DNA from: a virus
Reading direction: 5' to 3' (one strand)
Length of the DNA: 57,579 nucleotides
Virus record (IMG/VR): IMGVR_UViG_3300030389_000234
Location: 1-57,579 of that record
This document shows positions 15,864-56,891 of this stretch, piece by piece. The position numbers and the translations under genes are program-made. How positions within the stretch are numbered: position 1 is the first letter of the stretch; each line of letters opens with the position of its first letter. Below the pieces are notes generated by a model that worked only from the letters and a program-made list of their open reading frames with translations, made no database searches and was not told the origin of the DNA.

Positions 15864-15866
15864 TGC

Positions 15867-15882
15867 TAGTTATACTTTAAGT
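15867..15882 (-). promoter_or_regulatory. 16-base repeat with TATAACTA core
   Basis: ACTTAAAGTATAACTA on the minus strand, identical to 22481-22496 on the plus strand. It combines the ACTTAAAGT operator-like nonamer with the TATAACTA core seen at other late promoters. If it acts as a -10 box here, the transcript would be almost leaderless. Confidence 0.45.
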
Positions 15883-15954
15883 TTTGGGAAAAGCAAGTAC
15901 TTTTATAGGGACGACAGAAAAAAAGTTTAAATATGCGTCAGTACTTATAGTATT

Positions 15955-15975
15955 ACTTTAAGTATTACTTTAAGT
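15955..15975. repeat. Paired ACTTTAAGT operator-like repeats
   Basis: Two exact ACTTTAAGT copies 12 bases apart (15955 and 15967), with another at 15874. The same pair at the same 12-base spacing occurs at 22533 and 22545, and single reverse copies at 17940 and 22481. All are intergenic, consistent with binding sites of one phage regulator. Confidence 0.5.
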
Positions 15976-16059
15976 TTAACTCTTAGTATCTATTAACTTT
16001 AATTATATTAGTAATAAAAGAGTAAAGTTAAGCTTTGTGTAATACGTTATGTATACATA

Positions 16060-16088
16060 ATTATATCTCATAATGCCCCCGCTGTCAA
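16060..16088 (-). promoter_or_regulatory. Consensus sigma70 promoter for the leftward block
   Basis: On the minus strand: TTGACA, exactly 17 bases, TATAAT, a perfect match to the bacterial consensus. Transcription would start near 16053 and run into the lysis and terminase genes. The ACTTTAAGT repeats lie downstream of the start, where a bound protein could block elongation or initiation. Confidence 0.8.
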
Positions 16089-16099
16089 GTATTAATTTA

Positions 16100-16166
16100 T
16101 GTAACACCAATACACAATTTGTTACAGTATATTACAGTATATACACAAATTGTTACAAATGTTACA
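16100..16166. repeat. TGTTACA iterons
   Basis: TGTTACA at 16120, 16151 and 16160, an inverted TGTAACA near 16100, and a TATTACA variant near 16130. The block is short, AT-rich and directly upstream of the leftward promoter, so it could be an initiator or regulator binding array. Confidence 0.4.
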
Positions 16167-16357
16167 GCTTTAAAACAATGTGGTTAACAACCTAATTTTC
16201 CTAAATTCTGTCATTCTGTGTATACATATACGTAGGTACCCCCAGTGTCCCATACCGATATACCATTTTCTACATATTCAAACATCTGAATATCTGAATA
16301 TATCTCTTTTTGTCGTCTAACATACTGTATTTATTAAGTATTTTACACAATATACTA

Positions 16358-16387
16358 TTAAGAATACCAATATCACACTGTTATAAT
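16358..16387 (+). promoter_or_regulatory. Possible rightward promoter
   Basis: TTAAGA, 18 bases, TATAAT (16382-16387). The -10 box is perfect and the -35 weak. The first TGTGATCAC palindrome begins 13 bases downstream, a good place for a repressor. Direction and use are inferred. Confidence 0.35.
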
Positions 16388-16400
16388 ATAACATTTTGAA

Positions 16401-16487
16401 TTTGTGATCACAAAAAGCATTAAATCATGTATAACCTATCCCTCATTTGTGATCACATTTTAATATACCCCTCAATTTGTGATCACG
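16401..16487. repeat. Three TTTGTGATCAC palindromic operators
   Basis: TTTGTGATCACAAA (16401-16414, perfect palindrome), TTTGTGATCACATT (16446-16459) and TTTGTGATCACG (16476-16487). Centres are 45 and 30 bases apart, and the second and third share a CCCTC-A lead. The core resembles CRP/FNR-family half sites (TGTGA-TCACA) but without the usual six-base spacer, so another dimeric regulator is likely. Confidence 0.55.
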
Positions 16488-16498
16488 TTTTATATTTG

Positions 16499-16573
16499 GT
16501 TTAACATTAAACGAAAATACATAAAGTAGTTTACCATTAAACTATATTTCAAAAGTAGTTTAACGTTAAACTA
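16499..16573. repeat. Three GTTTAAC-GTTAAAC palindromic operators
   Basis: GTTTAACATTAAAC (16499-16512), GTTTACCATTAAAC (16529-16542) and the perfect 18-base palindrome TAGTTTAACGTTAAACTA (16556-16573). Centres are 30 and 29 bases apart, near three helical turns, which fits cooperative dimer binding on one DNA face. They follow directly on the TGTGATCAC set. Confidence 0.55.
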
Positions 16574-16599
16574 TATTAGTAGAACAAACAGTAAACAGA

Positions 16600-17415
16600 A
16601 CGGTAACAAAACGCTCAGAAGCTCTGTACTGCTCGCTGAGTAGGGTAAAAGCTTTTTAGGCTATCTACCCTCCAGAAAATAAAGTACCCGAAATAAACCC
16701 TTTTTGTTCTATCTTTGTTCTTTAGCCAGTTATTACACATATTATATATAAAAAATAATTAGGTCATAACTGCTTACCTAAATAAAAGTGACGTAACGTA
16801 ACAATTTACAATAAAAGAATACCTGATATTCAGGGTTCATGGCTTGGCATTAGTCGGAAATATTAGCCCTTACCAGTAAGACCACGTTATTTGAAAATTG
16901 GAACCGCAATAGTAGATAGCCCTAGGTTATCATATGCTAAATACTTCAAGCCTTGTTACTGGTCAGGAAGTTAGCGGCAAGCCATACATACAAAGTAAAG
17001 TAACCTGATCTTATGGTAACGGATCAGCTACCGAATATAAGCCTAATCTTTTAGGGTATAGTTAAACCTAGTTTACTGGTCATGCTAGTAAATGAAACAT
17101 CCGTCTATCATATAGATTGATTGATAAGAGTTTAAATGCCTGAGAATAAAGCAAGGGTTTTAAAAGGGTAGCGCATAGCAAATGCAAAGTGCGAAAATGA
17201 AAAAGAGATATAGTCCTAGTTAATAATGCGCTATAAAATTATAACGTCTAATTTATTAGAATATTTTATAGCAAGTGATTAGCTTATTAAAACCTATTAG
17301 CAAGGGTTTAATAGTATGGATAACCGCTCAAAAGTAAGTAAAGTGAAAAGCTTGTAGGCATGGGATATTTTATCTTGTGCCTATTATGGTTTTTACTTTT
17401 TGTAAAAATCGTTTT
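16600..17415 (+). ncRNA. Candidate large structured RNA
   Basis: About 800 bases without reading frames but with dense base pairing. A nested domain pairs 16839-16846 with 16978-16985 (8 bp) and, inside it, 16872-16879 with 16956-16963 (8 bp) and 16915-16921 with 16925-16931. Local stems lie at 16822-16834, 17005-17027, 17042-17055, 17072-17092 (8 bp), 17104-17116, 17173-17185, 17230-17272 (10 bp plus an inner 5 bp), 17286-17312 and 17355-17383 (6+4 bp). A terminator-like hairpin closes the region. Size and phage location recall giant RNAs such as GOLLD or ROOL, but I could not match a consensus. Strand is inferred from the terminator and the gene downstream. Confidence 0.4.
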
Positions 17416-17418
17416 GTC
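17388..17418 (+). terminator. Terminator-like hairpin before first early gene
   Basis: GGTTTTTAC and GTAAAAATC pair over nine positions around a T5 loop, followed by GTTTTGTC. The stem is AT-rich and therefore weak. It would end the candidate RNA 24 bases before the start of the 17442 gene, or act as an attenuator. Confidence 0.4.
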
Positions 17419-17441
17419 ATTAACTTATAGGAGCTAATAAA

Positions 17442-17933
17442 ATGACTTCAATTATTGAAAATGTAGTAAAGAATTTCTCAAACAATATCGGAAACGGTAT
17501 CAACTTAGGCGTATATTATAAATCTATTGTAGATCATGTTATTAAAACAGGTGATACTACACCATTAGTTAAAGCAATAAACGCCTCAATCAATAGAGGT
17601 GATACAGCATTGACTAGTCAACTTAGGGTAACAACAGGTAAAATTTGGATAGGTGCAAAGATTAAAACGAAAGCTAATAAAGTTATTTCCATTAAGATTA
17701 AAAATGCCAAGCTTTCAAATAGTGCTGTTAAAGCTTTATCGGATGTAGCTGGCCAAGTGTCTATGCGTGGCAGTAATTGGAAAAAAGCATTTACCCCTGA
17801 TACTGAGCCTAAAGCTTTTGACGTTGCACTATGGGCAGTAAGACAAGCAACGGCCAGACCTGATCAATTAGAAGCAATGATTGCAGCATTACAAGCGCAA
17901 CGGGCTACAGTGAGCAAGAAAAAAGCTGCTTAA
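17442..17933 (+). CDS. First rightward early protein, 163 aa
   Basis: A basic 163-residue protein, soluble, with alternating helices and Ile/Lys-rich strands and a Lys/Ala-rich C terminus (VSKKKAA). A good TAGGAG site lies 10 bases before the ATG. It is bounded by a terminator on each side, so it is probably transcribed alone at a high level. I do not recognise it. Its position next to the control region makes a DNA-binding or RNA-associated role worth testing. Confidence 0.75.
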   Translation: MTSIIENVVKNFSNNIGNGINLGVYYKSIVDHVIKTGDTTPLVKAINASINRGDTALTSQLRVTTGKIWIGAKIKTKANKVISIKIKNAKLSNSAVKALSDVAGQVSMRGSNWKKAFTPDTEPKAFDVALWAVRQATARPDQLEAMIAALQAQRATVSKKKAA

Positions 17934-43519: not shown

Positions 43520-43996
43520 TTACCAAGTTCCTCGGTATTTTCCTATAAAATAAATTATTGCACCAAATAAAGCAAAACCAGTTATTACTATAAGGATTCC
43601 AACAGTCCAGTTTATTAAGTTATCTATCTTTTCTTGTCTACGGTATACAGCTTCTTTTTGCATTCTTCTCTGTTCGGCTTCTATTTGTACAATACTTTCC
43701 CAAGCTGAAGGTCCGTAGTATAGTGAGATATACTCACGTAACTCTTCTCTCATCTCTTTGGCTTTTTGCTGTGCTGCCCATATTTCTACAGCAGATGTAT
43801 CAAATTTAGGATCAAGTCTTTTCCAAAGAGGTGGATCTTTTGCTTTGTTACCTAGATAATCTAAATCACTTACAGCTTTACCAAACGAAGAGAGATCTTT
43901 ACCTAGTTCACTAATTTCCTTACCAGCATTAACAGCTTTTTTAATTCCACTAAAAGCGGTGGTAGCTAATGCAATAGCTGTTGCTGGATCTATCAT
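43520..43996 (-). CDS. Late protein with C-terminal membrane segment, 158 aa
   Basis: 158 residues: Ala-rich N terminus (PATAIALATTAFSGI), a charged central helix and a membrane segment near residues 128-150 (WTVGILIVITGFALFGAIIYFI). One-base overlap with the next gene. Could help DNA transfer or lysis; no family named. Confidence 0.6.
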   Translation of the reverse strand: MIDPATAIALATTAFSGIKKAVNAGKEISELGKDLSSFGKAVSDLDYLGNKAKDPPLWKRLDPKFDTSAVEIWAAQQKAKEMREELREYISLYYGPSAWESIVQIEAEQRRMQKEAVYRRQEKIDNLINWTVGILIVITGFALFGAIIYFIGKYRGTW

Positions 43997-54623: not shown

Positions 54624-55697
54624 TTACGCAGCGTTGTATTTAGCAGTTACGATTGCTTCTGGACGAAGAATCTTCCTACCATATAGGTGCATACCACGAA
54701 CAATGTCAGCAAAGCTGTCAGGGTCACGATATGTTTCTGTCTTGTTGATCTGCTCTGCAGTTGCTACAGCAGAATCATGTCCAGCAACAATCACACCAAA
54801 GTTAGCATTTTGGTTTGCTGATCCTGTTGTACCTGGGCCTGTACCTACAGCAGGTAGGTTTGAGGACACGTACATACGGAAGCCATGAAAGTTGTTGATT
54901 ACAAGACCGTTACGAAGTCCACCAGACTCACCGTAGTCTCCATTCATGAAGCGGCTGTCTTCGTCTGATAGGATTTCCATGAACACTGGGTCAATTACGA
55001 GCCAACGTCCTTGTGTATCAACTTGTTGTTGATCAAGCAATCTTTTCATTCTTGCAACAACCATTGCAGGTGAAACTGTAGCTGTTGGCAAAGCAGTTGC
55101 ACCTGGTAAACGTGCTACGACAGGAATTGAGTGATCTCCTGCAGAGCTTGTTGTGATGTTACCGAATGAATCCTTACGGAGTTTCATGCTTGTAAGCAAT
55201 TCGTCTGAACCTGCGGTAGTCACAGCTTTTGAACCGTTTACACTGTCATTAACTGTGTCTGCTTGTGCATGTAAAGAAGTTTGCTTAAAACCTGACATAT
55301 AACCAAGAACTTCTTGGTCATACTGATCAGCTAGTCTGTAAGCTGCACGATCTGTTGCAAGTTGCATGAAGTTCACATGTGAGTGAGCTTCTTCAATATC
55401 GTCCATCTTAAAAGCAAAGTAGTTGCTTTTGTCTACGACTAACTGAAAATCTTCATCGTCAAGGTCTTGTGCTGTGACTGTTGTGCCACGAGCATAAGCT
55501 TGAACTGAGATTTCAGGCTCTTTGATTATACGCACAGTATCACCTTGTGCGCTGATCTCTCCGAAATAATCGGAGTTAGTTATATCTCCTACAGTAGCAG
55601 CTTTACGGAAAGCAAGCTGTACCTTCTTGGAGTAGATTATAGGACTAAAATTACCGTTAGGCAGATTCCCATAACCCGATGCGGTTTGAAAAGCCAT
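54624..55697 (-). CDS. Major capsid protein, copy 2
   Basis: 357 residues from the ATG at 55697, seven bases after GGAGG; a more upstream in-frame ATG (55712) overlaps that site and is unlikely. Same length as copy 1 with about 45 substitutions, mostly conservative and clustered in the first 280 residues. The C-terminal 80 residues differ at one position. Function as for copy 1. Confidence 0.85.
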   Translation of the reverse strand: MAFQTASGYGNLPNGNFSPIIYSKKVQLAFRKAATVGDITNSDYFGEISAQGDTVRIIKEPEISVQAYARGTTVTAQDLDDEDFQLVVDKSNYFAFKMDDIEEAHSHVNFMQLATDRAAYRLADQYDQEVLGYMSGFKQTSLHAQADTVNDSVNGSKAVTTAGSDELLTSMKLRKDSFGNITTSSAGDHSIPVVARLPGATALPTATVSPAMVVARMKRLLDQQQVDTQGRWLVIDPVFMEILSDEDSRFMNGDYGESGGLRNGLVINNFHGFRMYVSSNLPAVGTGPGTTGSANQNANFGVIVAGHDSAVATAEQINKTETYRDPDSFADIVRGMHLYGRKILRPEAIVTAKYNAA

Positions 55698-55746
55698 TGT
55701 TAAATCCTCCATGATATTTGGCTTTGGGAATAAAGCTTAAACACCT

Positions 55747-55943: not shown

Positions 55944-56891
55944 TCATGCAGAACGAGACATATCATAAACAAACTTGCCAGTACGCATAGCTTCGTTTAT
56001 TTTGTCCTGCATTTCCTCAAACTCCTTGTTAGACATTCTGGCTACATCAGACTCTTTTATTTGTCCTTGTACACCCTCTGCGTCTACAGAAGTACGAGTT
56101 CCTTTAGCAACAGTAGATGCTGCAGCTTTCTTAGACTTCTTTTTAGCTGCTACGGTCATACCGTTGTCAATCTTGTATAGATCTATCACACGTATAACTG
56201 AGGCAGGATCATCCATGTTTTCATAGAGTGCATCCTTAACCCACTTGGGTTGATCGTCTGCCCAGTTGTGAAACTTATCTGACTGTCTTAGTTCATCAAA
56301 GTCTTCGTGAGTCTTACGAATAACATTCTCTGCTTTTACTCTTTGAGCCTCAGAGTGTGCTTCATCTAATTCTTGTAGACGTGTCTCAGCCTTGTTGAAC
56401 ATCTCTTGAGCTTTCTTAGCTGCAATTGTTTCAACAATACCTGCTACGTCTGGATATTCTTGCGCCCACTTTTCTATGTCTTCATCAGACTTAGGAGGAA
56501 CGATACCTTCGTGTTTACTCTTTTTCTCTAGAGCTTCAAACTTTTCTTGCCACTCTTTTTCTTTAGCAGCTAAGTGTTTGCGAATATCACCATAGCGTTT
56601 TTTAAAAGACTTCTCTTCAGCATCTAACTCGCTGTCATCGTCTTCCTGTGCTTTGGTTTCCTCTGGGGTTTCTTCTTGTTTGGAATCATCTGAGGCTTGA
56701 ACTTCGGTGTTCTCAGTATCCTCGCTACTGGATTCCTCTTGTTCTTCGACTGTTTCACCACGAGCCTCTGCTTCTAGTCGGGCAATCTCTGCCTCTGCTT
56801 CTTCCATCTGTTTTTGTTTTTTAGCGTGGTTAAATCCACGATCTACAAAACCTGCTATTTTAGGTTTTTCCATTGCAGTTAGTTCAGGCAT
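55944..56891 (-). CDS. Scaffold-like head assembly protein, copy 2
   Basis: 315 residues, highly charged coiled coil with an acidic stretch (residues about 45-85), homologous along its length to the 314-residue copy 1. The segments KSFKKRYGD and KSDEDIE shared by both copies are the best conserved. Replacements keep charge, as expected for scaffold helices. AAGGAGAAC precedes the start. Confidence 0.7.
   Translation of the reverse strand: MPELTAMEKPKIAGFVDRGFNHAKKQKQMEEAEAEIARLEAEARGETVEEQEESSSEDTENTEVQASDDSKQEETPEETKAQEDDDSELDAEEKSFKKRYGDIRKHLAAKEKEWQEKFEALEKKSKHEGIVPPKSDEDIEKWAQEYPDVAGIVETIAAKKAQEMFNKAETRLQELDEAHSEAQRVKAENVIRKTHEDFDELRQSDKFHNWADDQPKWVKDALYENMDDPASVIRVIDLYKIDNGMTVAAKKKSKKAAASTVAKGTRTSVDAEGVQGQIKESDVARMSNKEFEEMQDKINEAMRTGKFVYDMSRSA

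Follow-up and report, generated by a model that had tools for sequence, protein, structure and literature searches.

The locus examined here raises the question of whether a long gene-free interval in a phage genome encodes a structured RNA and, if so, what that RNA might do. The DNA analyzed (the window) comprises 57,579 of the 58,043 bases of its record, and the interval (15864-17441) is flanked by two gene blocks that point in opposite directions. The rightward block includes genes for an integrase, ThyX, a primase/helicase, PolA and ribonucleotide reductase. The RCA roseophages CRP-13 and CRP-9, whose replication module is of the cobavirus type (PMC8528129), have primases that share 65% identity with this one; judged by this likeness, the window phage is cobavirus-like and its host is probably a roseobacter. 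The phage may also be temperate. The ORFs that were scanned yielded no RNA polymerase gene, and the related phage SIO1 has been described as having no RNA polymerase (PMC6775973). A gene pair is present in two copies at the ends of the record (282-1355 / 54624-55712 and 1602-2546 / 55944-56891), which would lie in tandem if the genome were circular or permuted. The copies of the major head protein are 87% identical and those of its neighbor (PHROG 13678) are 63% identical; a phage with two capsid proteins is possible, given this duplication.

An initial annotation had singled out positions 16600-17415, with operators on one side and the first early gene on the other, as a stretch that fits no protein frame and is a candidate for a giant phage RNA. 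The location was confirmed, no ORF of at least 60 amino acids was found between 15863 and 17442, and the exact helices quoted in support of the RNA are all present at their coordinates. The folding energy of 16600-17441 has a z-score of -4.4 (20 shuffles), and that of 16824-17441 (100 shuffles) has z-scores of -3.9 on the plus strand and -0.8 on the minus strand. Coding sequence of equal length and the upstream spacer were also low (-2.75 and -2.7, respectively), and folding energy alone is therefore weak evidence that was not relied upon. An excess this modest would also suit a reading in which there is no RNA, and AT-rich operator DNA simply contains hairpins by chance; comparison with homologues makes that reading extremely improbable.

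Relatives of the locus were gathered through the downstream protein (nine loci), through DNA motifs (more loci) and through a protein profile (others), and were aligned with MAFFT by sequence only, blind to structure. Group A consists of seven contigs and the window (n=8), with the same RNA in the same place and with swapped domains and insertions. Group B consists of about ten phage contigs whose RNA is diverged, is about 450-560 bases long and mostly lies ahead of a homologous gene. The RNAalifold consensus of group A (n=8) lies 11 SD below column-shuffled alignments, and the consensus-fold z-score is near -11 in both groups. Both-side changes occur in 22 of the 71 pairs that RNAalifold predicts for group A. 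Among 34 named pairs of this group, the cells are paired in 90% of cases and both sides have changed in 14 pairs, a count that was reached by none of 500 shuffles (6.3, SD 1.7) and by none of the slid registers (6 at most). The count for group B is 14 of 31 pairs (0 of 500 shuffles), and here too the covariation exceeds that of slid registers. A covariance model built from five group A sequences recovered the three held-out members (E 1e-26 to 2e-11).

The compensatory changes among relatives therefore lie far above the controls, and because the compensation is long-range and of several pair types, the reading of chance hairpins in operator DNA is already refuted. That the stretch encodes a phage RNA some 600 bases long, conserved and with an intricate fold, is well supported by the alignments, the covariation and the covariance model, which place its approximate ends at 16824 and 17410 on the plus strand. 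The annotated RNA is thus upheld from about 16824 onward; the first 200 bases or so of the annotated interval precede this start and look like regulatory DNA.

The longest invariant run of the group A RNA is ACGTTATTTGAAA (16884-16896, 13 nt; the next longest is 8 nt), and its identification as an rRNA-leader boxA is well supported by comparison with bacterial genomes. The run belongs to ACGTTATTTGAAAATTGGA (16884-16902, plus strand), the first 17 bases of which are identical to the boxA of the Sulfitobacter rRNA leader; this 17-base form, ACGTTATTTGAAAATTG, lies 267-269 nt before the 16S gene in Sulfitobacter. Other Rhodobacteraceae carry boxA variants at -248 to -298 relative to 16S, the leader variants of the family being ACGCTATTTGACATCG, ACGTTGTTTGAAAATTG and ACGCTATTTGAAATCG, and 16S leaders of Alphaproteobacteria carry variants at -158 to -372, including TTGCTCTTTGACATTG, AGGCTGTTTGACATTG and ACGCTCTTTGACAAGTG. 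The 19-base pattern had 25 matches in the genome collection, mostly in unrelated places, with two in Sulfitobacter rRNA operons, at about 267-271 nt ahead of 16S. The exact 19-mer was present in one of 81 genomes of the host family (in a Sulfitobacter rRNA operon) and is rare because boxA differs between genera. The phage sequence is thus equal to the host leader form, and is conserved while its flanks vary. It was also found in relatives that were fetched by the downstream protein alone (L006-L009, L056, L061, L065-L068, by locus number), and in members of group B, L067 carrying the variant ACGTTATTTGACATTGTAAATA. This boxA is the most informative part of the locus; the initial annotation had missed both it and a LexA-type site at 16706.

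For part of group A, RNAalifold offers an alternative pairing that would hide boxA (alignment columns 73-79/239-245). This pairing is broken in L003 and L004, and an alternative helix formed by GTTAC is restored there by compensation, which suggests that boxA is probably unpaired in the RNA.

The helices quoted in the initial annotation fared unevenly. ATGGCTTG (16839-16846) pairs exactly with CAAGCCAT (16978-16985), and this helix is kept only in part in relatives. The pairing of ACCAGTAA (16872-16879) with its exact complement TTACTGGT (16956-16963) is not conserved and was rejected, as several relatives lack it and the helix 16955-16959/17000-17004 is a competing structure. The helix within 17230-17272 (GCTATAAAAT / ATTTTATAGC) was supported by RNAalifold and a repeat search, and belongs to a long hairpin of the 3' domain (inverted repeat I1, 17218-17284). 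Another inverted repeat, 16296-16311/17200-17215, was taken as chance, its upstream arm being missing in five relatives checked.

Further elements on the plus strand were recognized from the alignments. By inspection, and not by formal counting, CCGC (16904-16907) pairs with GCGG (16974-16977); the counterpart is CCGTAAA/TTTACGG in L002 and CTACC/GGTAG in L003, with a shifted register in L003 and L004. GTTAC (16955-16959) pairs with GTAAC (17000-17004), also by inspection, and is compensated as GTTGT/ACAAC in L003 and L004. The hairpin CTGATC/GATCAG (17005-17027) has the invariant TATGGTAA in its loop, and three covarying pairs, with all cells (100%) paired and three pair types at the first pair across relatives. 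Pairing is also 100% in the long-range helix between CTACC (17028-17032) and GGGTAG (17167-17171), the first pair of which is C-G, U-A or A-U across relatives, and in the hairpin CGCAT/GTGCG with inner GC/GC (17172-17193), which has three covarying pairs. Both-side changes were seen in five pairs of the hairpin 17072-17079/17085-17092, and in two pairs of a hairpin with the loop ATATA (17104-17120) that is missing in L003, L004 and L018. At the 3' end, a hairpin of TAGGCA..TGCCTA (17354-17384) was classed as terminator-like by terminator scoring and has a weak U tract; alignment inspection indicated that L018, L049 and L056 keep this hairpin with its sequence replaced. A second hairpin, GGTTTTTAC..GTAAAAATC (17388-17410), was identified by exact complementarity and alignment, and is followed by GTTTTG. 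In group B, the hairpin loop UGCCAA forms a covariation-supported pseudoknot with UUGGCA just 5' of the ribosome-binding site.

The covariance model of group A gave no significant match to group B or to the CRP, SIO1 and ICBM2 loci. The case for common descent of groups A and B, which is likely, therefore depends on their position and boxA, on the downstream gene and on the hairpin at 17104-17120, the CATATAG of which occurs in group B RNAs too. BLASTN of the window region, and of one group B RNA, found no match among named phages.

Optional domains are inserted at fixed points of the RNA, one of about 57 nt in L003 and L018 and one of about 47 nt in L003, L018 and L056; they are common to otherwise different relatives, as if swapped by recombination. 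In L046 (1758-2141), a short hairpin and another gene (MNNQTRIELIE...) take the place of the 3' domain of the RNA after the GCA..GCAAA hairpin, and the 5' and core domains can therefore stand without the usual downstream gene. The exchange of entire domains and the pseudoknots are reasons to think that the RNA is more than a passive leader.

The initial annotation had likened the RNA, by its size and phage location, to the GOLLD/ROOL class, with no consensus matched. A search with Rfam covariance models returned no match for the window at the gathering score or at E up to 5, and none for the relatives at E up to 1; the window RNA is therefore not GOLLD or ROOL. It resembles them as a large, ornate, intergenic RNA of phages and prophages with pseudoknots (PMC12286853), but differs in having a boxA, in preceding an early operon, and in having neither an Rfam match nor a tRNA island in the window. 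GOLLD and ROOL are often near tRNA islands (PMC12286853), and no tRNAs were found in the window. A homo-oligomeric RNA cage is a further characteristic of that class. EAR and other antitermination RNAs with Rfam models were not detected at E up to 5, the only hits being chance eukaryotic or UTR models below the cut-off. A group I intron (AGATATAGTCC near 17205) was considered and rejected, there being no Rfam Intron_gpI match and the position being intergenic rather than within a gene.

Action in trans is supposed for GOLLD and ROOL. The window RNA could similarly be a discrete giant RNA that acts in trans and is ended by the hairpins at 17354-17410, in which case boxA would just ensure a full-length, folded product, and the downstream gene would be separate in its role or its start. 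A complex modular fold with exchanged domains and strong covariation, terminator-like hairpins 5' of the gene, the size and the phage location are all consistent with this possibility, which is nonetheless considered rather unlikely: wherever the surroundings are visible the RNA is directly upstream of an early gene, the U tracts of the hairpins are weak, and L046 has the 3' domain and the following gene replaced. In group B, a few bases separate the last pseudoknot arm from the ribosome-binding site, which suggests a single transcript.

The first gene of the rightward block (17442-17933, plus strand) encodes a protein of 163 amino acids and of no known family, homologues of which follow the RNA in both groups. 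It had no Pfam, PHROG or NCBIfam match and no PDB fold match, and no N-like antiterminator was identified by these searches. A protein of ICP2_2011_A ranked second in a viral fold search (E 0.07, probability 0.87); profile comparison of the family with ICP2 gp27, which is of equal length, was weak (probability 18%), and comparisons with VpV262 gp1 and SIO1 gp9 were negative. The RNA could conceivably be a cis-regulatory leader of this gene, riboswitch-like or translational, with boxA acting on translation as in suhB. The group B pseudoknot lies just before the ribosome-binding site and has three pair types at its last position, and boxA-dependent translational repression of suhB is known in E. 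coli (PMC5725501). In group A, however, boxA is 556 bases from the start codon with two hairpins between, and no Rfam riboswitch was matched; a leader of this kind is thought very unlikely.

Upstream of the RNA, a motif search located three operator-like palindromes of TTTGTGATCACA (16399-16411, 16444-16456 and 16474-16486; span 16399-16486), a motif that is also upstream in L003, L046, L056, L068 and roseophage CRP-13. Two operator-like palindromes of AGTTTAACGTTAAACTA (16523-16548 and 16552-16577; span 16523-16577) have equivalents in L002-L004, L018, L049, L056 and CRP-13. A LexA-type site, GTTC-N7-GTTC, follows at 16706-16720 and has the form of the alphaproteobacterial SOS box; the GTTC and GAAC forms of this motif have been applied to Dinoroseobacter (PMC6473078). 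The window contains one copy of the site and 1.4 are expected by chance, so weight was placed on its recurrence across loci: the sequence extended 1100 nt upstream in 19 loci, some being close relatives of one another, and in 15 of these loci 1-6 copies precede the RNA. The operators and the LexA-type site fit a prophage-type control region, and the early transcript is possibly SOS-induced.

The best reading of these observations, and one that is held to be probable, is that an early untranslated transcript would recruit host NusB-S10, be transcribed and folded like rRNA, and be read on into the early operon. A promoter between the operators or LexA-type site and 16824 would be released on infection or DNA damage, and the nascent RNA would expose its boxA, which copies the one in host rRNA leaders. 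Given the identity of boxA, host NusB-S10 with NusA, NusG and SuhB would be expected to bind it and form an rRNA-type elongation complex. Such a complex would resist Rho across about 550 untranslated bases, would help long-range helices to fold, as with pre-rRNA, and would let the polymerase continue through the terminator-like hairpins at 17354-17410, which are weak, and enter the early operon. Nus factors that load at boxA in E. coli travel with RNA polymerase, assist the folding of rRNA and are able to oppose Rho (PMC5725501, PMC4807359 and PMC10250234). An untranslated RNA of 550 nt with long-range helices would face the same problems as rRNA, and borrowing the rRNA machinery would suit a phage in which no RNA polymerase gene of its own was found. 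After processing, the folded body may be active in trans.

Some observations count against transcription in the manner of rRNA. The boxA of E. coli suhB favors Rho termination (PMC5725501), and so the sign of a boxA effect depends on context. The elaborate pseudoknotted fold seems to exceed the needs of a plain antitermination leader, and the boxA-hiding pairing in part of group A was counted on the same side.

The window RNA and the rrn antitermination system (NusB-S10-NusA-NusG-SuhB) have an identical boxA, located in both in the 5' portion of a long structured transcript that is not translated and contains long-range helices. The window RNA differs in that its body has no similarity to rRNA (Rfam), that it precedes a phage early gene and that its Nus binding is putative. 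As in lambdoid nut sites (boxA-boxB plus N), boxA is in an early phage leader, Nus factors would be expected, and a hairpin is beside boxA in several contigs; in contrast, the boxA of the window has the host rRNA form and is followed by a conserved fold of 550 nt, and no N-like protein was identified by the family and fold searches. HK022 put is a structured nascent phage RNA 5' of early genes that is proposed to modify the elongating polymerase. It is about 70 nt long and is not known to need Nus factors, whereas the window RNA is much larger and bears a boxA. No report of boxA within a large structured phage RNA or in leaders of Zobellviridae was found in the open-access papers searched, and no claim of priority is made.

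Other phage genomes were scanned with a boxA consensus of the host type, for which 0.13-0.63 matches were expected per record searched; the gamma form was GYTCTTTAANA (PMC5725501). In the window, the scan returned boxA at 16886 and two matches within genes. The motif recurs in the early leaders of other Zobellviridae. SIO1 has one match, in an ORF-free region between modules, and VpV262 has one, 490 nt before gene 1. ICBM2 has boxA once in its leader and once elsewhere, ICP2 twice in a 1.7-kb leader and once elsewhere, and PA11 twice in early leaders and once inside a gene. PQ867845, of which the first 17.9 kb were searched, has one boxA 342 nt before ORF1. The form is gamma in VpV262, ICP2 and PA11, and alpha in SIO1, ICBM2 and PQ867845. 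The ICP2_2011_A leader (L132, 25238-26981) is free of genes and its two sites are exact gamma-type boxA sequences; those of PA11 (L136) are at 43587 and 43897, in successive early leaders. No match was found in RIO-1 or CRP-4/5/6/9/13, which was also counted against the rRNA-type reading. The folding-energy z-scores of the ICP2, VpV262, RIO-1, CRP-9 and ICBM2 leaders were not above controls, and so boxA, and not a shared fold, is claimed for these other phages.

That the boxA is an authentic host element of the form used by the host clade would also be compatible with a decoy, in which an abundant boxA-bearing RNA titrates NusB-S10 (and SuhB) off the rRNA operons and thereby shuts down ribosome synthesis or frees resources. 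A decoy would need multiple or very abundant boxA sequences, whereas there is one per RNA here and two in the ICP2 leader, and the extensive conserved fold outside boxA would be left unexplained; this explanation is regarded as very improbable.

The motif was also seen in unrelated phage contigs, after promoter-like sequence and a hairpin, and before small early-looking mRNAs or a spacer and tRNAs. This placement is as would be expected of a NusB-S10 loading signal. In L022 (13427), L025, L033, L038 and L051, the same boxA follows a promoter-like TTGACA..TATATT and precedes a spacer of about 250 nt with inverted segments and then a tRNA array (Thr, Leu, Ala, Asn, Ser, Val, Gly, Asp), an arrangement that reads as a phage tRNA operon patterned on the rRNA/tRNA operons of the host. 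In L026, L027, L041, L042, L030, L048, L029, L032, L036 and L037, a hairpin directly followed by ACGTTATTTGACAATT stands after sigma-70-like promoters. It precedes several unrelated small phage genes, sometimes with several copies per contig (L029 and L037 are one contig), and reads as a reusable boxB-boxA-like cassette.

A conserved host rRNA boxA inside a giant phage RNA provides a molecular handle (NusB-S10-SuhB) that makes the question of what such RNAs do testable. A broader proposal is made tentatively, as it is more doubtful than the rRNA-type reading itself: a giant phage RNA might be handled as rRNA, capturing the host rRNA transcription and folding complex via an authentic rrn boxA and then taking part, as a stable and functional RNA or RNP, in an early or SOS-induced lytic switch, and Zobellviridae-type phages might broadly have taken up the boxA that their own host clade uses. 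The distribution of the motif suggests that boxA follows the host clade, with the alpha form in roseophages and the gamma form in vibriophages and PA11. The locus suggests that the phage borrows the host rRNA transcription machinery for its first transcript, and that phages without an RNA polymerase of their own may co-opt rRNA-type elongation complexes to transcribe long early operons.
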